A stretch of 54,187 nucleotides of DNA from Candidatus Aminicenantota bacterium. Lineage in GTDB: Bacteria > Acidobacteriota > Aminicenantia > Aminicenantales > Aminicenantaceae. Shown here in pieces: positions 24,515 through 43,448 of this stretch. The first letter of the stretch is position 1, and every line of letters begins with the position of its first letter. Both the position numbers and the translations under genes were made by a program. The stretch covers positions 1 through 54,187 of the forward strand of contig SOIV01000051.1 in the NCBI GenBank assembly GCA_004377005.1. Reading direction: 5' to 3'. A model generated the notes under the pieces. The model ran no database searches, was not told where the DNA came from, and was given only the letters and a program-made list of their open reading frames with translations.

Positions 24515-25864
24515 ATGCAAAAAAGACAGGAAACTGAGGAGATAGATACAAAAAAAAAAGACATCTTATGGCTAATTCTTCTTCGTTTAATCATAGTCAC
24601 GTCTCTTGTAGTTTCAGCCGTTATAATTCAATACAGCACATCAGTCTTTCTCCCGCTTAATTCCTTTTACTACTTAATCCTCTTATTCTACATTCTCTCT
24701 TTCATCTATTTTATTTTTTATACCTGGGGAAAATATCTCACCCTCCAGGCCTACTTACAAATATTTTTCGACCTCTTTTTGATTACAGCCCTTGTCTATA
24801 TTTCCGGAGGATTACAAGGGTCTTTTTACTTCCTTTATATTTTGGGAATAATTGCAGCAAGCATCGTTCTCTCAAAGCGTGCTGCCTATCTGACCGCAGC
24901 CCTCTCTGCCATCTTTTTTGGTTATCTTGTGGTTTTGATGTATCGGAGAATCATTCCTTCTTTTGCTCCCGGGGAAATTCTGGATATTTCTCTGGGTCTT
25001 GTTATAAACAATATTTTTATTGCCTGGAGCGCCTTTTTCCTCGTGGCCTTTTTAATGAATTACCTGACCGGGAGTTTACAGAAGACAAGGGACGAGCTTC
25101 GCCTGACTCAAAAAGAGCTTGAAGTAAAAAAACGGCTGGCAGTGGCTGGAGAGGTCTCAGCCCAACTGGCTCATGAAATCCGGAATCCCCTGGCAGCAAT
25201 CTCAGGCTCTGTTCAGGTTCTGAAAGACGAATTAGACCTGCACGAAGAGCAAAAAGATCTGATGAATATCATTGTTAAAGAATCAGGGAGAGTGTCTCGA
25301 TCCATTGAGCAATTCTTGAATTTAGCTTCCCCGGTCAAGCAAGCCTTTTCCTCTATCGACCTCTCAGCTATTTTAGAAGAAACCGTGGTCTTGCTTCAAA
25401 GCGGCGGCGAGCTAAACGGGAACTTTCGGGTTGAGGGGAATTTTAAATCAGTCCATGTTCGATATTTTGGAAGCGGCAGCCAGTTCAAGCAGCTGTTCTG
25501 GAATATCATTAAGAATTCGCTCAGAGCCATGCCCGATGGCGGGACGTTGACTGTTGATTTTAACCAGGAGAAAAAGGATAAAATCCAATTAAGGATTGCC
25601 GATACCGGAAAAGGCATGACCGGAGAGGAAAAAGAAAGGATTTTTGAACCTTTCTATTCTGGTTTTGAGGGTGGGCAGGGAATTGGAATGGCTGTTGTTC
25701 ACCGGATTGTGGGCGACTATAAAGGGGAAATCAAAATTGACTCTGAGCTTAATAAAGGAACAGAGATCGTCATAACTCTTCCCCTGAGGGGACCTGGAAA
25801 TCCAGGAATACTGAAAAGTGTAAAGAAAAAGAAAGATGGAAAAAATACTCATAATAGACGATGA
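24515..25864 (+). CDS. pilS: sensor histidine kinase, PilS/NtrB-like
   Basis: N-terminal TMs, AHEIRNPLAAISGSVQ H-box, N/G boxes; next to pilR. Confidence 0.85.
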   Translation: MQKRQETEEIDTKKKDILWLILLRLIIVTSLVVSAVIIQYSTSVFLPLNSFYYLILLFYILSFIYFIFYTWGKYLTLQAYLQIFFDLFLITALVYISGGLQGSFYFLYILGIIAASIVLSKRAAYLTAALSAIFFGYLVVLMYRRIIPSFAPGEILDISLGLVINNIFIAWSAFFLVAFLMNYLTGSLQKTRDELRLTQKELEVKKRLAVAGEVSAQLAHEIRNPLAAISGSVQVLKDELDLHEEQKDLMNIIVKESGRVSRSIEQFLNLASPVKQAFSSIDLSAILEETVVLLQSGGELNGNFRVEGNFKSVHVRYFGSGSQFKQLFWNIIKNSLRAMPDGGTLTVDFNQEKKDKIQLRIADTGKGMTGEEKERIFEPFYSGFEGGQGIGMAVVHRIVGDYKGEIKIDSELNKGTEIVITLPLRGPGNPGILKSVKKKKDGKNTHNRR

Positions 25865-27203
25865 AAAGAGCGTTCTCGATATGCTCAACGTAGTCTTTAA
25901 AAAGGAAGGCTACAGAGTAAAGAAATCCCTTTCTGCCCAAAAAGCCCTTGAATTGATAGAGGAAGAAGACTTTGACCTTATCCTCTCCGATATAAGGCTC
26001 CCCCAGATAAGCGGAATGGAGCTTCTCCGGAAGGTCAAGGAGAAAAAGCCCGGGATTCCTGTCATCATGATAACAGCTTACGGGACGATCAAGCAGGCAG
26101 TGGAGGCTCTTAAAGCAGGGGCCATAGATTATGTGGTGAAGCCTTTTGACGTGGAAGAGCTGAAAATCATTGTTTCTCAAGGACTGGAAAAGATAAAGCT
26201 TAAAGAAGAGAATATTCTTCTTAAAAAAGAACTCAAGGAGAAATATAGTTTCAAGAACATGGTGGGCAAGAGTAAGAAAATGAAGGAGATTTACAGCTTG
26301 ATTGAAAAGCTTGCAGCAACAGATTCCACTGTTCTTATAACTGGAGAAAGCGGTACGGGAAAAGAGATGGCTGCCAGAGCAGTTCATCTTCTCAGCCCGC
26401 GTTGGGATAATCCATTTGTCTCCCTAAACTGCGCAGCTCTTCCCGAAAATCTATTGGAGAGCGAGCTTTTTGGCCATGTGAAAGGGTCTTTTACAGGCGC
26501 AGTGGTTAATAAAAAAGGCATGTTCGAAGTGGCAGAGAAAGGAGTTTTATTTTTAGACGAGGTAGGAGAAATGTCTCCCTGGACTCAGGTGAAGCTCCTT
26601 GGGGCTATCCAGGATAAGAAAGTAAGAAGAGTGGGGGGGACCGAGGAAATTCCGGTTGATGTCCGGATCATCGCCGCTACCAATCAAAATTTAAAGAAGA
26701 AAATCGAGGAAGAGAAATTCAGGGAAGACCTCTTTTACCGCCTGAATGTCATTTCTTTTGAAATGCCCCCTTTAAGAGAGAAAAAAGAAGACCTGCCGCT
26801 CCTTGTCTCTCATTTCCTCAAGAAATACTGCCAGAAGATGGGAAAAAAGATGAAAAGAATTGTTCCCGAAGTGATGAATATCTTCGAATCCTACCCTTGG
26901 CCAGGGAATGTCAGGGAGCTCGAGAACCTGATAGAAAGAATCGTCGCCATCGAGGACAGGGAGACAATAACAGAAGATAGCCTTCCTGAGGAACTTTTAA
27001 AACCACATAAAAAGCCGGAAACCAACCTCCTTTTTCAGCAGGGTTTTAACCTCAATTCACATCTTGATGAAATTGCCCAAAATTATATCAAAGAGGCTCG
27101 CCAGGCTGCGAACGGTAACCTCAAGGAAACAGCTTCTCTCCTTGACGTCAGCTACCGCACATTGAGGTACCTCATCGATAAATACGGCTTAAAATCTTCC
27201 TGA
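25836..27203 (+). CDS. pilR: sigma54-dependent response regulator, PilR/NtrC-like
   Basis: Receiver domain, GESGTGKE, GAFTGA-type loop (GSFTGAVVNKKG), C-terminal Fis-type HTH. Confidence 0.92.
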   Translation: MEKILIIDDEKSVLDMLNVVFKKEGYRVKKSLSAQKALELIEEEDFDLILSDIRLPQISGMELLRKVKEKKPGIPVIMITAYGTIKQAVEALKAGAIDYVVKPFDVEELKIIVSQGLEKIKLKEENILLKKELKEKYSFKNMVGKSKKMKEIYSLIEKLAATDSTVLITGESGTGKEMAARAVHLLSPRWDNPFVSLNCAALPENLLESELFGHVKGSFTGAVVNKKGMFEVAEKGVLFLDEVGEMSPWTQVKLLGAIQDKKVRRVGGTEEIPVDVRIIAATNQNLKKKIEEEKFREDLFYRLNVISFEMPPLREKKEDLPLLVSHFLKKYCQKMGKKMKRIVPEVMNIFESYPWPGNVRELENLIERIVAIEDRETITEDSLPEELLKPHKKPETNLLFQQGFNLNSHLDEIAQNYIKEARQAANGNLKETASLLDVSYRTLRYLIDKYGLKSS

Positions 27204-27466: not shown

Positions 27467-28003
27467 ATGTTAAAAAAAGTAAGAGGTTTTACACTGATTG
27501 AGCTGCTTATCGTTGTGGCTATTATCGGAATTCTTGCCGCCCTTCTCATCCCCAACGCCATAACCGCCATTCAGAAAGCGAAGCAAAAAAGCACCATGAA
27601 GGATGTCGTCGTCATTTCCACAGCCATTGCAGATTATGTCACTGATAACGGAGTAGCTCCTACTCAGACAGCTGGTACTTATTCAGGCGGCGACGAGTTC
27701 TATCTTTCACTTTCTCCCTTCTACCTCAAAGTCATGCCTGTTACCGATCAGTGGGGTAATGGTTTCTATATCTATTGCAATGTTGCTGTAAATGGAAATT
27801 ATGGAATCAGTGGGGCTCTTGGAGATGATTTCTTGGTTTCTTCCTGGGGACGTGACAAGATACTGGAAAGTTTTACTTTCGATCCTAGTTCACCTGAAGT
27901 TGGAATGTATGTGGTAAGTACAGGAGCACATTTCAACAATGATTTAGTTATGTGGAATGGTTCCTGGATTCGTGCTCCAAGGACTGCTGCAGCCGGTACC
28001 TAA
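27467..28003 (+). CDS. type IV pilin / GspG-like prepilin 1
   Basis: Type III signal RGFTLIELLIVVAIIGILAALLIPN; TDQWGNGF motif. Confidence 0.88.
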   Translation: MLKKVRGFTLIELLIVVAIIGILAALLIPNAITAIQKAKQKSTMKDVVVISTAIADYVTDNGVAPTQTAGTYSGGDEFYLSLSPFYLKVMPVTDQWGNGFYIYCNVAVNGNYGISGALGDDFLVSSWGRDKILESFTFDPSSPEVGMYVVSTGAHFNNDLVMWNGSWIRAPRTAAAGT

Positions 28004-28337: not shown

Positions 28338-28895
28338 ATGTTGAAAAAAGCAAGGGGTTTTACATTGATTGAATTGCTCATCGTTGTTGCTATCGTCGGT
28401 ATCCTCTCGGCGCTTGTCATCCCCAATGCCGTAGTTGCCATACAGAAAGCCAAGCAAAAAGAAACTATGAAGCAAATCGTCCACATCGCCACTGCCTGTG
28501 CAGATTATGTAAGCAGCATGGGATATGCTCCTGATTATGGAAATCAATCAGGTCCGCTTCAAGCTGGCAGCAACTTCGTGACTTCTATTTCTCCATTCTT
28601 TTTAAAAGTTTGCCCTATAAATGATCAATGGGGGAATCCTTTTCGAGTTTATACAGGCACAGCCATAGCCTCGGTTTACGATATTCCAGCAGAAGATGTA
28701 TATGATGATGACTTTTTAATTGTTTCCTTAGGACGTGACCGCGCAGATGGCGGTGCTGTAAATTTTACCTATCGGCCAGAAAACCTTGCATTAGGCCTTT
28801 ATCAGATCAATTCTGTGGCGGATTTCAATAATGATTTGATCAATTTGGATGGATCTTGGCTTCATGCTCCACGAATAATGTTAAGTGGTTCATGA
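28338..28895 (+). CDS. type IV pilin / GspG-like prepilin 2
   Basis: ARGFTLIELLIVVAIVGILSALVIPN; NDQWGNPFRVY. Confidence 0.88.
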   Translation: MLKKARGFTLIELLIVVAIVGILSALVIPNAVVAIQKAKQKETMKQIVHIATACADYVSSMGYAPDYGNQSGPLQAGSNFVTSISPFFLKVCPINDQWGNPFRVYTGTAIASVYDIPAEDVYDDDFLIVSLGRDRADGGAVNFTYRPENLALGLYQINSVADFNNDLINLDGSWLHAPRIMLSGS

Positions 28896-30327: not shown

Positions 30328-32160
30328 TTACCTTGACCGCCAGAACCTCTCCCTGCGCGGTCTGGATTTGGATTCCCTGAACGTGATGGGCTTCTCCTCC
30401 GCAGCCGGGCTTTCAAGTACAGGTGCCTTTTCTTTTTTTTCACTTTTATCGATGCGGAAGGATCGTTCTGCTGCATAAAGAATTTCTTCTCTGAGTCCTT
30501 CGGAGGAAACTTCCTCCGTAAACTTCCGTCTACCTGCCACTAAATCCTTTATATAGTTTTGAAGCTGCTCCTCAGAGTAGAAGTTGCGGAGGGCGTATTC
30601 ATCAAGACTCTTTCCTTCGCAGAGCCTTATTTCCTTGGTTCCGAGCAGTCCTTTCTCATAGTGGTTGGTTCCCCTTAAATCCCCCCTCTGGATTTGAGCC
30701 ATAAGATTGATGGGAACACGGCTCACCTTGCGCACCAATCTTTTTTTCGTTTGACCGTTTTCTTCATGAGTTTCGATAATCTCTCCAAGCCCCCCTGTGT
30801 TGTACTGCATGAATTTGAGTTTTCCCGGGTAGTTGCTGGCCAGGGTCATGATTATTTCATAGAAGCGGTTGATTTTTTTAGCTCTGGGCCCGACGATGAA
30901 AGGATCGGTTCCGACAATGCGCACTGATTCACCGGCTTTGAGGGGCTGGCTGGCAAAGCTGTGAGTGCTTTCTCCCCAGAGATAGGCAAGCACAGCTTGT
31001 TCCGGGGTCAACTCCTGGGCAAAACTCATGATCGTATTTCTTCGAGTGATGAAAGCAAAGACAAGCCCGTCAAGTTCTTCCAGAGGAGGGAGGTTGATAG
31101 ATTTAGAGTAGATGCCAACCGTTTTTCCCTTTATCTTGACCTTGAGTTTATCACGCCTCACAACTGCCCTTCCGTTCGCCGTAAGAGTTTCATCGAGAAA
31201 ATCGACTTCCCCATCGGCTTTGATCATGACGTTTTCAAACAGCGCAGATTTGTCGGTTAGAGCGTTATACATCGCTTCCTGGCTTTCTTGTTCAACATCT
31301 GTTTTCACAAAGAAGTTGTCTTCTGTCCCCAAGGCAGATCCGTCATTCTTCAAGAAAACAATATCATCCTGGGAAACTATAGTCTTTTCGCCTTTATCAT
31401 AATCAAGCCCGAGCTTGTGGCAGGACCAGGTGGATTTTCCCGTTGCTGTCAGGCCAAACAGAAATACTCCGTAGGTTTTGAGCTTATTGTTGGAATCTCT
31501 GACCGTAACCAGCTTTGTTCCGGCGTGAAGACCGAGCATACCCAGCTCATCAGCTGACCACATGGCCTGGCGGAGAAAACCTTTTTTGTCTTCTCCCATG
31601 TAATCAGTTCCCAGAGCGACATTAATTTTTTCTTCAGGAAGAACAAGAACTTGCTGCCGCAGAAGATGCTCTTCCGGAATATGAATCATGGTGAACTCAG
31701 GGCCAGGATGCTTTCCCGGTTTGAACATGGTGTGTCCCCACATAAATCCGATGCGGTAGTTCACAAGATCTGCTTCGGAAACATAAAGATTGCAGATGGG
31801 GTTGTAGGAATCATTTTCTCCCATCTGTCTCCGGATGTGGTAGAAGGGAAGAGTTCTCAGAAGATGGAGCACCTTATCCAGCTCTTCCGGCGCCCTGGAG
31901 ATGAGAGTTTGCTGTTCTGTTGTGGGAGAAGAAAGGCGGACTGCTTCACTCCCTAAGTAAACAGTTTTCGGAGCAATCCGGCTTGATATGGCTGCCCGCC
32001 AGCCGTAGGATCCGAACTTTGTTTTCACTCCCGATGCTTTGGCTTTTGGCTCGAGCCATTTGAGGTCTACAGCTCTGATGTTCGGTCCCTTTAAGACTCG
32101 AGAGAGCTCCTCCTTGAATTTATTGTAGGCTTCCTGGTTGTGAATTCCTTTGTTATTCAT
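30328..32160 (-). CDS. divergent ATP-type phosphoenolpyruvate carboxykinase-like protein with basic C-terminal tail
   Basis: PEPCK-type P-loop FLFGLTATGKSTWS, LTPEQAVLAYLWGESTHSFAS; non-canonical kinase-2 region SQDDIVFL. Confidence 0.65.
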   Translation of the reverse strand: MNNKGIHNQEAYNKFKEELSRVLKGPNIRAVDLKWLEPKAKASGVKTKFGSYGWRAAISSRIAPKTVYLGSEAVRLSSPTTEQQTLISRAPEELDKVLHLLRTLPFYHIRRQMGENDSYNPICNLYVSEADLVNYRIGFMWGHTMFKPGKHPGPEFTMIHIPEEHLLRQQVLVLPEEKINVALGTDYMGEDKKGFLRQAMWSADELGMLGLHAGTKLVTVRDSNNKLKTYGVFLFGLTATGKSTWSCHKLGLDYDKGEKTIVSQDDIVFLKNDGSALGTEDNFFVKTDVEQESQEAMYNALTDKSALFENVMIKADGEVDFLDETLTANGRAVVRRDKLKVKIKGKTVGIYSKSINLPPLEELDGLVFAFITRRNTIMSFAQELTPEQAVLAYLWGESTHSFASQPLKAGESVRIVGTDPFIVGPRAKKINRFYEIIMTLASNYPGKLKFMQYNTGGLGEIIETHEENGQTKKRLVRKVSRVPINLMAQIQRGDLRGTNHYEKGLLGTKEIRLCEGKSLDEYALRNFYSEEQLQNYIKDLVAGRRKFTEEVSSEGLREEILYAAERSFRIDKSEKKEKAPVLESPAAEEKPITFRESKSRPRRERFWRSR

Positions 32161-32408: not shown

Positions 32409-34760
32409 TTATTCTGTTTTTGGCTCATCTGTCACAATTTTTTTGAGGTCATCTACTGAAGCCTTTCCGCTGTTAAAGAGGTAACAGGAACTGCTCTCGA
32501 GAAGACGCTCGAAAAAATTCCTCTGAAGTTCCATCTTTTCAGGGGTTGTGAGCAAAAGATGGGGATTGAAAAAAGGCTGGCTTTTAGAGGGACTGAGACC
32601 GCGCGTTAGTCCCAGGCTCTGTCCGGATTCGAGAATGCGCAGGGCATCCTCAACCTGGACTTCCACTACTGGGGGAGAGACAGTATCATAGCGGAGGATG
32701 AATACCCAGCGGAGAGAAGTTCTCTTAACGTGCATTGCCGGTCCCTCGATCCAATAAGGATCAAGAAGAGCATGGGAATCTTTGGAGGCTTTATAGCAAT
32801 AGGGGGAGCCGCGGTCAAGACGGCAGTCGTCAATGCGAAGGCATTCTGCATCCTGGCAGTCTTCCTTGAGCGTAATTACGTTTTCACATTTACTTGAGTC
32901 GAAAAGAGGAGCTAAGCGAGGATAGGATTCAACCGTGTTTGTCGGGAAAAAAAGCTTTCTTTCGACAGAATCAGCCAGGGCTGGGCCTCCTGCCAAGCGG
33001 ACGAAGATGATGTCGTTGGAGTGCAAGCGCAATCTTTTATCTTGAAGAAGAGCGAAGAAAAGTTCAGTCTTTTTTGTTCCTTTTGGCCCGATCAGGACGA
33101 GACCGCTTCCGTCAATTTCAGCCGACATTCCCCGGATAGTGTGGACATTAAAGAGCTTTTCGGAGACGTCCATGACAAGACCGAGAGCCAGACTGCGCAG
33201 AGAAACGTAATTGTCTGTGTTGACGAGCACGCCTGTGTTTGTTTCTGAGTTATAGAAAGAGTGCGGTTCGCGTCCTGTTATTCCGTCGACAGCGTATATG
33301 ATGCCGTGGGGTTCCAGGTCTGCTTCAAGTTGAGCCGGGTACCAGTTTTCGATCCAGAAATCATTGAGATGGGAGACATTCGTGCGCAGCTGAACAATGA
33401 CGCCGTTGATGTTGGCGTTCCATTCATAATAGTTTTCGTAGCTGAGATGGCTTTCCATTTCAGCGATCAGAGCATCCTTCATTTTGACAGGGATTGAGGA
33501 ATCTACGGGCACTGATTTTTTTCTTCGTGTTATCGTATTGTCTAAAGATATGCGCTTGATTTTTTTGGCTGTTTTAAGGTTTGAGAGGGCCTGTGTGATC
33601 CTGTCCATACCTTTTTCCAGGTTTTCCATGGAAGTTGCGTATGAAATACGGATATAATCATCGGCACCAAAGGAATCTCCTGGAACTATAGCTACTAAAG
33701 CCTCTTTTAGAAGATAATAAGCCATGCCGTAAGAGTTTCGAATCTGGACATTGTTGAATTCTTTATCATAATAAGAGGAGAGATTCGGAAAAAGATAGAA
33801 TGCTCCCTGTGGTTTGAAACAGGAGAGATGAGGGATTCTCTGAAGCCTCATCAAGAGATAATTTCTCCGTCTCTGAAACTCAGATGTCATTTTGGAAACT
33901 TCATGCTGGGGACCGGTCAAGGCTTCTAAACTCGCCTTTTGAGAGATCGAGCAGGCATTGGAGGTGGTGTGGCTCTGGATTTTGGCCATGCCATTGATTA
34001 TTTCTGCAGGGCCGGCTGCATATCCTATTCGCCATCCAGTCATGGAGTAAGATTTTGAGACTCCGTTGACGATAGCTGTTTTCTTTTTTATTTCCTCTCC
34101 CAGGGAAGCGAAGCTAACAAAACGAAAGTCATCATAGACGATTTTTTCATAGATTTCATCAGTGATAACGAAGATATCTTCTTCCATAACTACGTCCGCC
34201 AAGGCTTCAAGGTCGCGTTTTTCGTAGGCTGCTCCTGTGGGATTGGAGGGATTGTTCAGTATCAAAGCCTTGGTGGCAGGGGAGATGGCAGACTTTAGCT
34301 GATCTGGCGTCAGAAGAAATCCGTCTTCCTCCTTGGTAGGGATTATTACAACTTTGCCTTTAGCGAGTGAGACTGAATGGGGATAGGTTACCCAGTAGGG
34401 AGCCGGGATGATGACTTCTTGGCCTTCATCAATCAGCGCTTGAACGAGATGGTAAAGCGAGCTCTTTGCTCCTGAGGAGACGATGATTTCATCCATAGCA
34501 TATGTGAGGCCAAAATCTTGTTTCATGCGGTTTATGATCGCTTCTTTCAGCGCTGGAATTCCGTCGTTTGCCGTATACTTGGTAAAATTTTGCTCAATGG
34601 CCTGGATTCCAGCCGCTTTTACATTATCAGGAGTGGAAAAGTCTGGCTCTCCCACACTGAGGTCAACAACGTCTATTCCCTCGGCTTTCATTGCCTTGGC
34701 TTTGGCTGATATTTTAAGAGTGGGAGATATGCCGATTTGACTAGCTTTTTCTGATATCAT
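32409..34760 (-). CDS. class I/II aminotransferase (aspartate aminotransferase-like) fused to a C-terminal PEPCK/HPr-kinase-like domain
   Basis: N-terminal AAT motifs (NNPSNPTGA, SKSYSMTGWRIGY); C-terminal P-loop-like LIGPKGTKKTELFFALL. Confidence 0.8.
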   Translation of the reverse strand: MISEKASQIGISPTLKISAKAKAMKAEGIDVVDLSVGEPDFSTPDNVKAAGIQAIEQNFTKYTANDGIPALKEAIINRMKQDFGLTYAMDEIIVSSGAKSSLYHLVQALIDEGQEVIIPAPYWVTYPHSVSLAKGKVVIIPTKEEDGFLLTPDQLKSAISPATKALILNNPSNPTGAAYEKRDLEALADVVMEEDIFVITDEIYEKIVYDDFRFVSFASLGEEIKKKTAIVNGVSKSYSMTGWRIGYAAGPAEIINGMAKIQSHTTSNACSISQKASLEALTGPQHEVSKMTSEFQRRRNYLLMRLQRIPHLSCFKPQGAFYLFPNLSSYYDKEFNNVQIRNSYGMAYYLLKEALVAIVPGDSFGADDYIRISYATSMENLEKGMDRITQALSNLKTAKKIKRISLDNTITRRKKSVPVDSSIPVKMKDALIAEMESHLSYENYYEWNANINGVIVQLRTNVSHLNDFWIENWYPAQLEADLEPHGIIYAVDGITGREPHSFYNSETNTGVLVNTDNYVSLRSLALGLVMDVSEKLFNVHTIRGMSAEIDGSGLVLIGPKGTKKTELFFALLQDKRLRLHSNDIIFVRLAGGPALADSVERKLFFPTNTVESYPRLAPLFDSSKCENVITLKEDCQDAECLRIDDCRLDRGSPYCYKASKDSHALLDPYWIEGPAMHVKRTSLRWVFILRYDTVSPPVVEVQVEDALRILESGQSLGLTRGLSPSKSQPFFNPHLLLTTPEKMELQRNFFERLLESSSCYLFNSGKASVDDLKKIVTDEPKTE

Positions 34761-34787: not shown

Positions 34788-36194
34788 TTATTCTTCTTCT
34801 TTCTCTTCAGACGTGAGTTTCTCTTTGAAATATTTCTTCAGGTCAACCCCTGTCAGGGACTTGACTACCTCTGGCATTTGAGCCAGAATTTCTGCTACTT
34901 GGGCGGTGATTTTTGAAGTACCCAGGCCTTTATCTCCTCCGACAATCACAATTTTATCAACCTTGGAAAGAGGTTCGGAGACGGCCTTGGTCAATTCAGG
35001 GAGGACTTTAAGATAAGTATCAAAGAGAGCAGCCTTGTCGTACTTTTCCCAGGCTTGAGCTTTTTTCAGCATTGTTTCAGCCTCGGCTAAACCTCGTTGC
35101 TTGAGCTCTTCGGCTGCAGCAGTACCTTCGAGTTTTGTCGCTTCTGATTTTCCCCTGGCTTCAGCCAGGATGCGGTATTCTTCTGCCTCTGCTTCGGCTT
35201 TTAGCTGGTATTTGCGGGCGTCAGAAGGTTTGATAACGCTGGACTCAAGCTCTTTCTGCTTACGGCCGATTTCTAAATCCTCTATCTTTATGGATTGTTC
35301 CTTTTCTATGATCTTTACTTTGGCTTCTTCTTTTTTTATTTCCTGGTCGATACGGAAGCGCTCAAGTTCATAGGAGAGGTCTGCTTGTGCTTTTTTCTGG
35401 TTGACCAGAGCCTGCGACTCGGCCTTTTTGCCCTCGTTTTCCCACTCGGCCTTGGCGATGAGGGCTGCGGCAGCTAGGCGGGCCACTTCTGCTTCCTTTC
35501 GAGCTTCTGAAGATTTGACCACGGCTTGCTTTTCTGTTTCTGCTTCTGCGATTGTAGCGTCTCGTTTGGCTGCAGCTATCTGTGGCTTTCCGAGGGCATC
35601 GAGGTATCCCTGGGTGTCGCTTATGTCTTTAAGGGCAAAGGACATCATGACCAGACCCATCAGGGCAAAGTCTTTATGAGCAGCCTGGATCACTTTTGAT
35701 GAAAATTCGTGTCTTGCCGTATAAATTTCTTCCACGGTCATGGCACCTATAACCTCTCTCATCTTTCCCTCTAGGATTGTCATGGCGACATCCTTGATGC
35801 CTTCTTTTCCTAACCCCAAAAATTGCTCTGCTGCCAGGCGAATAGAGTGGTCAGAGGAATCTATCTTGACCTGAGCAGTGGATTCAGCCATGAGGGGAAC
35901 TCCTCCTCGGGTGAGAACTTCTGGGGTTTTAATGTTCAAGGTGATCACTTCCATGGGCAAGATGTCTACGGTTTCAATGAAAGGCAAGACAAAAGTGCCC
36001 CCTCCTAGACGATAGCGATAGCCGACTTTTCTCTTTGTTCCATCAGGGGCGATCACTGTTTTCTTTCTTCCTCCAGAAATAATAAGAGCTTGATTGGGGC
36101 CGACTTTTCGATACTGTTTGGCCGTGAGGAGGATTATTAAGGCTAATAAAATAAGTATGATGCCTAATATGATCAGCTTGGTTATGATGGTCAT
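34788..36194 (-). CDS. SPFH/flotillin-family membrane protein
   Basis: N-terminal TM, SPFH domain, long Ala/Glu coiled coil (AEAETEKQAVVKSSEARKEAEV). Confidence 0.85.
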   Translation of the reverse strand: MTIITKLIILGIILILLALIILLTAKQYRKVGPNQALIISGGRKKTVIAPDGTKRKVGYRYRLGGGTFVLPFIETVDILPMEVITLNIKTPEVLTRGGVPLMAESTAQVKIDSSDHSIRLAAEQFLGLGKEGIKDVAMTILEGKMREVIGAMTVEEIYTARHEFSSKVIQAAHKDFALMGLVMMSFALKDISDTQGYLDALGKPQIAAAKRDATIAEAETEKQAVVKSSEARKEAEVARLAAAALIAKAEWENEGKKAESQALVNQKKAQADLSYELERFRIDQEIKKEEAKVKIIEKEQSIKIEDLEIGRKQKELESSVIKPSDARKYQLKAEAEAEEYRILAEARGKSEATKLEGTAAAEELKQRGLAEAETMLKKAQAWEKYDKAALFDTYLKVLPELTKAVSEPLSKVDKIVIVGGDKGLGTSKITAQVAEILAQMPEVVKSLTGVDLKKYFKEKLTSEEKEEE

Positions 36195-40142: not shown

Positions 40143-40319
40143 CCTCCGGGGAATATACTATATTCGATTTTCTCTTTCAAGTTTAGAGTTTGGGGAACGT
40201 CCCCATTTTTGCTTTGACTTTTTTCTTTGTCTTATGATAGTTTTTGCTTTCTATTCAAAACATAAGATGAGTATTTTGGCATAATGCTCGTTCATCACAA
40301 GGATAAAGGAGGATATGAT

Positions 40320-43300
40320 ATGAAAAAAGGAATATTTTCGTCTAGGTTTCTATTGGTTCTGTGTCTGGGATTGGCCGTAAGCCTTTTCCTCGGTGCGAAA
40401 AAAGCAAAGAAAGAACCTGAACTTCTTCTCAAAGAATCAGTCCTTGATGGGCTGAGATGGAGATGTATCGGCCCGTCCAACATGGGAGGACGGATTGATG
40501 ATTTTGCTGTTGTGGAAAGCAACCCTAAAATTATTTATGCAGGGACTGCCTCAGGAGGAGTGTGGAAGACCACCAATAACGGCGTAACCTGGGAACCCAT
40601 TTTCGACGACCAGATTACTAGCACCATCGGCGATGTGACCGTGGCGCCTTCCAATCCGGGTATAATCTGGGTTGGCACTGGAGAACCGAACAATCGTCAG
40701 AGTTCTTCCTGGGGAGACGGGATTTATAAATCTACTGATAGCGGCAGGACATGGAAAAATATGGGGCTTCGTGATACCCATCATATTGGTCGTATTGTCA
40801 TCCATCCGACCAATCCGGATATTGTTTATGTTGCAGCCTTGGGGCATCTCTGGGGTCCGAACAAAGAAAGGGGCCTGTTTAGAACCATGGATGGCGGAAA
40901 AACCTGGCGCAATACTAAATTTATTGATGAGAATACAGGATTTGTGGATGTTGCTCTGGATCATGAGAATCCAAATGTTCTGTATGCAGCAGCTTATCAG
41001 AGGCGCCGCCGCGGCTGGGGTTTTAACGGAGGAGGACCTGGCAGTGGTCTTTACAAGACGACCGACGGCGGAGAAACATGGGCCCGTCTGACAAATGGAC
41101 TGCCTTCAGGAAACACAGGACGTATCGGAGTAGATATTTACCGCAGTAGCCCCAATGTTGTCTATGCCGTTATCGAACACAAACAGGGTGGAGTTTTTCG
41201 CTCTGAAGATAAAGGCTTAACCTGGAAAAAGATGTCGAGCACCAATCCTCGGCCCATGTATTACAGCAAGATACGCATCGACCCGAACAACGACCAGAGG
41301 ATCTGGGTTCTCGGAGCTTCTATGTATGTCTCTGAGGATGGAGGTAAGTCTTTCAACACTAATTATGTAAGGGGGGTACATGGCGACCATCATGCCATGT
41401 GGATTAACCCTTCCGATTCCAATCATATGGTCCTGGGCTCAGATGGAGGGATTTATTTTTCTTATGATCGCGGCAAAACCTGGGATTTTGTCAATACGCT
41501 CCCTCTCGGACAGTTTTACGAAATAGGTTTTGATATGCGGAATCCTTATTATGTCTACGGAGGATTGCAGGATAACGGCAGCTGGGGAGGTCCCAGCTCA
41601 ACCTTGAATAGAATTGGAGTTTCCAACGAGGACTGGGTCAGAATCGGGGGAGGAGATGGCTTTTATACTCAAGTAGATCCCGAAGACAACAACACCATCT
41701 ATGCCGAATCCCAGAATGGGAGACTCTACAGGTTTGACGTGAGGTCAGGAGAAAGCAAGTCCATAAGGCCTGAACCTAATGATGAGAAAGAGCGTTACAG
41801 GTTTAACTGGAATTCTCCGATTTTGATATCTCCTCATGATCCCAAGACAATCTATTACGGCGGAAACAAACTGTTTAAATCCAAAGATAGAGGAGAGACA
41901 TGGGAAGCCACGATTGATCTGACAACTCAGCAGGATAGAGAAAAGCTTCCGCTTATGGGAGTGCTTCCAGACAAGGACACGCTTTCCCGACACGACGGCA
42001 TTTCCTATTACGGCGATATCACAACAGTTTCTGAGTCCCCTCTTAAAGAAGGTCTCATCTATGCAGGCACAGATGACGGTAACTTACAGGTCTCCCGCGA
42101 TGGCGGGAAGAATTGGAAGAATGTGATCGGTAAAGTTCCTCGGATGCCCAAGTATACCTATGTCACCAGGGTTGTAGCTTCCCGCTTTAAAGAAGGGACA
42201 GCCTATGCCACATTTGACGGCCACCGCAATAATGATTTCAAAGCATATGTCTTCATGACAACCGATTATGGGGAGAGCTGGAAGAATATCTCAAGCAATC
42301 TGCCTCAAGGCGGAATTGTCAATGTTATAAGAGAGCATCATCGGAATCCCAATCTTCTTTTTATCGGAACAGAAAGAGGTGCCTACTTCTCTATTGATAG
42401 AGGAAAGAAGTGGGTGAAGTTTAAGAGCAACTTCCCCACCGTTCCAGTTGATGACATTGCCATTCATCCTCGAGAGAATGACCTGATTTTTGGCACCCAT
42501 GGCCGGAGTGTATGGATTTTAGATGATATCACTCCCTTAGAGCAGCTTGCAAAAGATACCTTGGCCTCTTCCGCTTATCTTTTTGACATCCGTAAAGCAA
42601 CAATCTTTAATCCTTACAACCATAAGGGAAATCTTGGTCACAAATTTTTTGTCGCTCAAAATCCGCCTTTTGGGGCTACGATAAGCTACTACCTGAAAGA
42701 GGAAGCGAAAGAGGACGTAAAAATAGCTATACAAGACAGCCAAGGGCGGCAAATAAGGGAGCTCAAAGCTCAGAAAGATGCTGGAATCCATCGCGTTGCC
42801 TGGGATTTGAGGTATGGGCCTCCTGAAGCTCTTGGAGAGGATAGGATTAGCCGTCGCTTCAGAGCTCGAGGGCCCTTTGTTCTTCCCGGAGAATATAAGG
42901 TGACGTTGAAAACAGCGGGTCAGGAGATGACAAAGATTGTTAAGGTTGAGGGAGACCCCAGGATCGATATTTCCTTCGAGGACAGAAAAGCCCAGCATGA
43001 TGCCCTGATGAGCATTCATAAGCTGTACCCTGCTATTTCAGCAGCGAGCCGTGCTTCAGATAGTATGAGAAAGGAGATAAAAAAGCAGGAAAGCGCTCTA
43101 AAAAAGATTCCTGATATCCCCGCGGCAATTCATGAGTCGATTAAAGCTATCTCCAAAGAGATCGATGATATTCGGCTAAAGTTAATCGGAGACCCCGGAT
43201 TAGGTTATAGGGGGATGCGCCGTTCAGTCAGGGGACGGCTCCTCATGACTGGAAGGTCTATAGGAGGATATACAGGTGCCCCTTCTGAGCGTCGTGTTCA

Positions 43301-43448
43301 GCAGATAAGGAAAAATTCTGAAGAGTTAAAGACACTTATTGAGAGGATAAACAAGATAATAGAGGTAGATATCCCCAAGCTGAATGAGTTGATGAACAAA
43401 AACAATATCCCCCGTATATTTGTTGGGAAAAAAATAAAAATTAGCTAA
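40320..43448 (+). CDS. secreted VPS10/sortilin-type BNR-repeat beta-propeller protein
   Basis: Repeated YKSTDSGRTWKNMG, FRTMDGGKTWRN, YKTTDGGETWARL; ATG 40320 with aaaggagg RBS; signal peptide. Confidence 0.88.
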   Translation: MKKGIFSSRFLLVLCLGLAVSLFLGAKKAKKEPELLLKESVLDGLRWRCIGPSNMGGRIDDFAVVESNPKIIYAGTASGGVWKTTNNGVTWEPIFDDQITSTIGDVTVAPSNPGIIWVGTGEPNNRQSSSWGDGIYKSTDSGRTWKNMGLRDTHHIGRIVIHPTNPDIVYVAALGHLWGPNKERGLFRTMDGGKTWRNTKFIDENTGFVDVALDHENPNVLYAAAYQRRRRGWGFNGGGPGSGLYKTTDGGETWARLTNGLPSGNTGRIGVDIYRSSPNVVYAVIEHKQGGVFRSEDKGLTWKKMSSTNPRPMYYSKIRIDPNNDQRIWVLGASMYVSEDGGKSFNTNYVRGVHGDHHAMWINPSDSNHMVLGSDGGIYFSYDRGKTWDFVNTLPLGQFYEIGFDMRNPYYVYGGLQDNGSWGGPSSTLNRIGVSNEDWVRIGGGDGFYTQVDPEDNNTIYAESQNGRLYRFDVRSGESKSIRPEPNDEKERYRFNWNSPILISPHDPKTIYYGGNKLFKSKDRGETWEATIDLTTQQDREKLPLMGVLPDKDTLSRHDGISYYGDITTVSESPLKEGLIYAGTDDGNLQVSRDGGKNWKNVIGKVPRMPKYTYVTRVVASRFKEGTAYATFDGHRNNDFKAYVFMTTDYGESWKNISSNLPQGGIVNVIREHHRNPNLLFIGTERGAYFSIDRGKKWVKFKSNFPTVPVDDIAIHPRENDLIFGTHGRSVWILDDITPLEQLAKDTLASSAYLFDIRKATIFNPYNHKGNLGHKFFVAQNPPFGATISYYLKEEAKEDVKIAIQDSQGRQIRELKAQKDAGIHRVAWDLRYGPPEALGEDRISRRFRARGPFVLPGEYKVTLKTAGQEMTKIVKVEGDPRIDISFEDRKAQHDALMSIHKLYPAISAASRASDSMRKEIKKQESALKKIPDIPAAIHESIKAISKEIDDIRLKLIGDPGLGYRGMRRSVRGRLLMTGRSIGGYTGAPSERRVQQIRKNSEELKTLIERINKIIEVDIPKLNELMNKNNIPRIFVGKKIKIS

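Follow-up and report, generated by a model that had tools for sequence, protein, structure and literature searches.

A flotillin-linked fusion of an aspartate aminotransferase to a probable pseudo-PEPCK domain in Candidatus Aminicenantota and other bacteria

The window analysed here, the whole 54,187-nucleotide stretch of Candidatus Aminicenantota contig SOIV01000051.1, encodes on its minus strand (32409-34760) a 783-residue protein in which an aspartate aminotransferase (AspAT) is joined to a second domain that has the predicted fold of PEPCK and has probably lost PEPCK chemistry. The gene, of a kind present in many uncultured bacteria, is the middle member of a cassette with the order FloT-like flotillin, fusion, divergent PEPCK. 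A function of this module at the aspartate-oxaloacetate-PEP node is well supported; with respect to the fused domain itself, we lean, if only by a little, towards a flotillin-linked Asp-OAA-PEP module in which the pseudo-PEPCK domain would be a non-catalytic docking and/or sensing part. The first-pass annotation had described one open reading frame joining an aspartate aminotransferase (residues 1-395) to a second domain, and in this it was correct: the 783 codons are uninterrupted, with no internal stop.

The aminotransferase domain (residues 1-395; 33576-34760, minus strand) is class I AspAT-like. Residues 30-388 match Pfam Aminotran_1_2 (4.3e-80), the best NCBIfam model is the aspartate transaminase PRK06107 (residues 4-395; 447 bits, below its cut-off of 617), and the solved structures nearest to residues 1-395 are those of aspartate aminotransferases (E 4e-109 and 4e-108). 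The PLP-binding lysine, Lys236 in GVSKSYSMTGWR (34053-34055, minus strand), lies in an invariant column, as do K99, N173, D201, Y204, S235, W243, R244 and R371 across 47 aligned full-length homologues, and the PLP lysine, substrate arginine and cofactor residues of class I aspartate aminotransferases are all present. Lys236, R371, N173, D201, Y204 and the GAK lysine are common to residues 1-395 and to the class I AspATs of the T. thermophilus, S. meliloti AatB and plant bifunctional type (PRK06107); the conserved GAK lysine (K99) is suggestive only with regard to acidic-substrate specificity. Whereas the class I AspATs known so far stop at about 400 residues, the fusion continues, via a linker of approximately residues 396-424, into the pseudo-PEPCK domain (about residues 425-777; 32430-33488, minus strand), as delimited by the AlphaFold2 model and Foldseek. 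In a model of the full-length protein (pLDDT 88, pTM 0.55) the domains are confident and their relative orientation is not fixed, as could be the case if the linker is flexible and the enzyme dimeric.

Pfam searches with residues 400-783 of the window protein gave no family match, the C-terminal domain used alone as a query drew no significant match from Pfam or from PDB sequences, matches to PEPCK in sequence searches were, like those to HprK, only weak, and neither the window fusion protein nor 15 homologues matched PF01293 above the gathering score. Structure prediction and profile comparison reveal the relationship. The AlphaFold2 model of the domain, built from a 65-sequence alignment (pLDDT 89, pTM 0.88), has ATP-dependent PEPCKs as all of its best 35 PDB matches in Foldseek (E 1.5e-17 to 4e-14), followed by GTP-PEPCKs, with a TM-score normalised on the query of about 0.7 (0.70 for the best match) and essentially the whole domain covered. 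Profile alignment with the neighbouring PEPCK is collinear over 213 columns (P 91-93%), and that with canonical PEPCK, for which the profile is small and for which local alignment succeeded and global alignment failed, is collinear over 300 columns (P 49%); unrelated control profiles gave 0.2-0.7%. On the basis of the Foldseek matches and these collinear alignments, the C-terminal domain is, as modelled, a complete and compact PEPCK-fold domain of about 390 residues. Its likeness to ATP-dependent PEPCK (PckA, PF01293/TIGR00224) extends to the whole fold and to the motif order (P-loop, RL..D, ENV, xPPx-L-EDA, NTG/NSG), but it is shorter (about 390 compared with 520 residues), its catalytic motifs are not intact, it has a Cys4 motif and it was found only joined to an aminotransferase.

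The gene adjoining the fusion (30328-32160, minus strand), which had been picked out from the outset as a separate PEPCK-like gene, matches PF01293 (E 1e-25; 90.6 against the Pfam cut-off of 26.5) and, over residues 31-562, PRK09344.1-3; the latter score (289 bits) is below the curated NCBIfam cut-off of 369, and the protein is therefore assigned to a divergent PEPCK branch. Its catalytic residues are intact: Y187, K192, K193, H212, the P-loop GLTATGKST (G236-T244), D265, D266 and R331 are invariant or nearly so in 18 aligned neighbour PEPCKs and make up the complete ATP-PEPCK catalytic set. It is the only PEPCK_ATP match in the window genome, where no PEPCK_GTP match was found (the bin is 83% complete). 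Members of the order's other families do not have the PEPCK-like gene, and almost all of these members carry a GTP-PEPCK at another place in the genome. At least 13 members of the order keep the fusion without having the PEPCK-like gene, most of them with an unlinked GTP-PEPCK.

The first gene of the cassette (34788-36194, minus strand), 27 bp upstream of the fusion, encodes a flotillin of the SPFH/Band 7 type (Pfam Band_7 1.5e-27). It resembles the bacterial flotillin FloT (NF058507) in having an SPFH domain and a Flot region, scoring 377 bits and not reaching the NCBIfam equivalog cut-off of 700, and differs from it in that its conserved partner is the aminotransferase fusion. Of 66 testable loci, 65 have the flotillin gene directly upstream of the fusion and in the same orientation, and the PEPCK-like gene is directly downstream in 36 of 59, with three more nearby in divergent orientation; no further gene family is linked to the fusion as widely as these two. 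Even in a clade at 35% identity, each of the loci read (L186-L194) has FloT as the immediate neighbour of the fusion, and six of the nine have the PEPCK-like gene at most a few kb away, in opposite orientation. Within the phylum sample a FloT match is present in all 33 fusion-bearing genomes; among the other 264 genomes, 61 have one at the same threshold, some ten of these matches being strong. These linkage and co-occurrence counts come from related genomes and are not independent. Three genomes of that sample (G129, G149 and G104) keep the divergent PEPCK and lack both the fusion and any FloT match, a pattern which hints that fusion and flotillin go together. Scanning for promoters and terminators turned up no terminator-like site on the cassette coding strand, and several weak promoter-like matches in the 248 bp that separate the fusion from the PEPCK gene.

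G002 and G004, both from the same genus as the window, have a separate AspAT and a canonical pckA at the very place of the cassette, with no FloT (L180, G002:C89, 4170-7045; L181, G004:C83, 5623-8498). The replacement AspAT is a different one (32-33% identical), and the pckA, scored for G002, reaches 673 bits against the TIGR00224 cut-off of 590. The swapped locus is flanked on one side by LpxK, lipid A acyltransferase, RNase PH and NAD-dependent epimerase/dehydratase genes and on the other by SIS-domain, acyltransferase, pilin and sigma-54 regulator genes, with flank identities of 84-97% (71-80% for the pilin genes). As L065 and L074, which are more distant, carry the fusion cassette at the corresponding locus, the swap is probably secondary. 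In the window, two tandem prepilin-like genes (N_methyl; 27467-28003 and 28338-28895) lie downstream of a sigma-54 response regulator (25836-27203), an order kept in several relatives; a 1054-residue protein with sortilin/BNR repeats (40284-43448) adjoins the lipid A genes, and a similar protein occurs near the cassette in L074.

A different kind of change is seen in a single member of the order, G043, in which the corresponding locus (L179, G043:C13, 4919-6225) encodes an aminotransferase, 84% identical to the fused homologue L086, with neither FloT nor the C-terminal domain. Downstream, a 17-residue stretch, a possible remnant, resembles the tail of the domain, weakly when taken alone (E 0.065), and the absence of the domain looks like a secondary loss; the genome retains a GTP-PEPCK. 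Since both FloT and the C-terminal domain are missing from G043 while the aminotransferase stays, the two appear to come and go together, more tightly than do the domain and the PEPCK-like gene.

In the mechanism that we propose, the aminotransferase half, judging from its conserved residues, would convert aspartate and 2-oxoglutarate to oxaloacetate and glutamate, and the neighbouring divergent PEPCK would convert oxaloacetate and ATP to PEP, CO2 and ADP, a reaction assigned because of its conserved residues, its position as the sole recognisable PEPCK in the genome and the in-place replacement by pckA. The pseudo-PEPCK domain would couple the aminotransferase to a flotillin scaffold at the membrane, by docking and/or ligand sensing, and in genomes that lack the divergent PEPCK its part would usually fall to a canonical GTP-PEPCK encoded at another locus. 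We infer the docking role from the near-perfect flotillin linkage and from the joint absence in G043, which is one clear case.

It may instead be that the domain mainly regulates or docks PEPCK itself, the flotillin just localising the complex; the domain would then bind oxaloacetate, PEP or nucleotide, or pair with the neighbouring PEPCK, so controlling or channelling aspartate flux. Such an arrangement would accord with the PEPCK fold of the domain, its 213-column similarity to the neighbouring PEPCK and the fact that in most loci the PEPCK-like gene adjoins the fusion or lies near it. We nevertheless regard it as unlikely, if deserving of serious attention, in that the at least 13 members of the order without the PEPCK-like gene keep the fusion and retain the flotillin, and that G043 is without both domain and flotillin although a GTP-PEPCK is present.

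The proposal that the domain is non-catalytic depends on the residues at its would-be active site. In ATP-PEPCK (E. coli numbering) the P-loop GLSGTGKT contains the catalytic lysine, Asp268-Asp269 bind metal, and Y207, K212, K213, H232 and R333 are residues of the OAA/PEP and metal sites. The fusion contains LIGPKGTKKTELFFALL, whose Walker-like stretch GPKGTKKT (residues 558-565; 33066-33089, minus strand) is a degenerate P-loop with Lys at the usual Gly position, as the first-pass annotation had noticed; of 75 homologues, 40 have GTKKT and 7 have GTRKT, and a divergent clade has GxGR[TKS] forms. Profile alignment to PEPCK and HprK makes RLHSND (residues 578-583; 33012-33029, minus strand) the equivalent of the metal-binding Asp-Asp. 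By such alignment and inspection, rather than superposed coordinates, so that single-residue placements are uncertain, the Asp pair corresponds to N-D, Y-D or N-E, the first Asp being lost and the second, kept in the window, not being invariant; the Tyr is kept, the Lys pair that should follow is missing and a single Arg, invariant or nearly so, lies close by, the main clade has Arg where PEPCK has His while the divergent clade has a His there in an HC[AS]A motif, and an R333-like Arg is present only in the divergent clade. The fused domain has the PEPCK fold, on the predicted model, and departs from ATP-PEPCK in its P-loop, its Asp pair and its Y207/K212/K213/H232/R333 set. Because its catalytic residues are degenerate while those of the neighbouring PEPCK are kept, it is probably a pseudo-PEPCK in which PEPCK chemistry has been lost.

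Other parts of the domain are strongly conserved. The most conserved block, in the N-lobe (residues 446-485, EWNANINGVIVQLRTN to HLNDFWIENWYPAQLEADLEPH; 33306-33425, minus strand), has many invariant or near-invariant columns across diverse homologues, and R123, ERK 201-203 and K225 (domain numbering) are further conserved positions. The Cys4 motif, CX4CX5CX8C (residues 635-655; 32796-32858, minus strand), is a possible Zn site; CX4[C/H]...C...C is kept in 63 of 75 homologues, as C-C-C-C in 54 and C-H-C-C in 9, and this Cys/His exchange suggests metal binding. The N-lobe block could be a new active site, and the divergent clade, retaining the HC[AS]A His and the R333-like Arg, may have some activity. 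An active domain, which would make the fusion a bifunctional AspAT and PEPCK-like enzyme, or a new phosphotransfer or decarboxylase enzyme, is consistent with the very strong conservation of the N-lobe block, R123, ERK 201-203 and K225, and with the retention of a catalytic-site Lys or Arg in most P-loops and of the second Asp in many sequences. It nonetheless seems to us distinctly improbable given that the first metal Asp is lost and the second not invariant, that the Lys pair is not conserved, that the P-loop Gly is replaced by Lys or the catalytic Lys by Arg, that the main-clade His is replaced by Arg and that most genomes have another PEPCK anyway. Of the initial suggestion of a composite enzyme or sensor at the aspartate-oxaloacetate-PEP node, the node and the AspAT fusion hold, whereas an active kinase is unlikely in view of the degenerate catalytic residues.

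We give very little credence to the domain being an HprK-like serine kinase/phosphorylase that senses metabolic state. Its likeness to HPr kinase/phosphorylase (HprK, PF07475/TIGR00679) consists of the P-loop and kinase-2 region and a common superfamily; weak matches were found to TIGR00679 (8 of 16 members, best 7e-5) and Hpr_kinase_C (3 of 16), and the profile match is P 88-92%, but only over 60-63 columns around the P-loop, ending after the kinase-2 region, whereas the PEPCK fold spans the whole domain. The P-loop reads GTKKT instead of GxGKS, the metal Asp is likewise degenerate, the window fusion protein has no PF07475 match and scores 13 bits with TIGR00679 against a cut-off of 240, and the window genome has no Pfam-recognisable HprK. 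We therefore rejected an HprK identity. The first-pass assignment to a PEPCK/HprK-like domain survives in that the domain is of the HprK/PEPCK superfamily and has a complete PEPCK fold, and in its HprK part is reduced to about 60 columns.

The fusion gene is genuine and not an assembly accident. Of 60 relatives, 51 have the C-terminal domain (55-97% identity), the frame is about 780-800 residues wherever the contig permits, including in two single-contig 4.4-Mb genomes, and the fusion occurs in 33 of 297 sampled genomes of the phylum. Wherever the 5' end of the locus is complete (76 of 76), the C-terminal domain is fused to the aminotransferase, and no copy of the domain standing alone was observed. 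A scan of genome contigs found 153 relatives, of which 80 were kept; their titles include Aminicenantes, other Acidobacteriota, Ignavibacteria/Bacteroidetes-labelled bins, Calditrichota, KSB1, Gemmatimonadota, Latescibacterota, Zixibacteria, TA06 and others, these phylum-level names being MAG labels that may be wrong. An artificial joining of two genes by local misassembly or sequencing error, in favour of which we found nothing, is refuted by the occurrence of the same frame in relatives, single-contig genomes included, in 33 genomes across the phylum and at all 76 complete loci under many phylum labels.

In the open-access literature we found no description of the fusion, the pseudo-PEPCK domain or the cassette, in keeping with the first reading of the sequence, which knew of no example; that reading had not included the flotillin as the most constant partner, the conservation of the cassette across phyla or its in-place replacement by AspAT and pckA. 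The component families are known, and it is their combination and the degenerate PEPCK domain that appear new. Tentatively, the cassette may represent a new membrane-microdomain metabolic module distributed over many phyla, in which flotillin would scaffold the AspAT via the pseudo-PEPCK domain, itself maybe sensing oxaloacetate, PEP or nucleotide or carrying a Zn site, thereby coupling amino-acid catabolism to PEP supply; the domain would then possibly be the first PEPCK-fold pseudoenzyme to act as a scaffold or sensor.

The results tie flotillin, the bacterial role of which is poorly defined, by strict gene linkage to one metabolic branch point, and the fusion offers a natural pseudo-PEPCK domain. 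They also suggest a route to PEP for deep-branching bacteria that have no recognisable canonical PEPCK. The exchange of the cassette for AspAT and pckA at one locus in sister species amounts to a natural experiment, which makes the function of the module testable.
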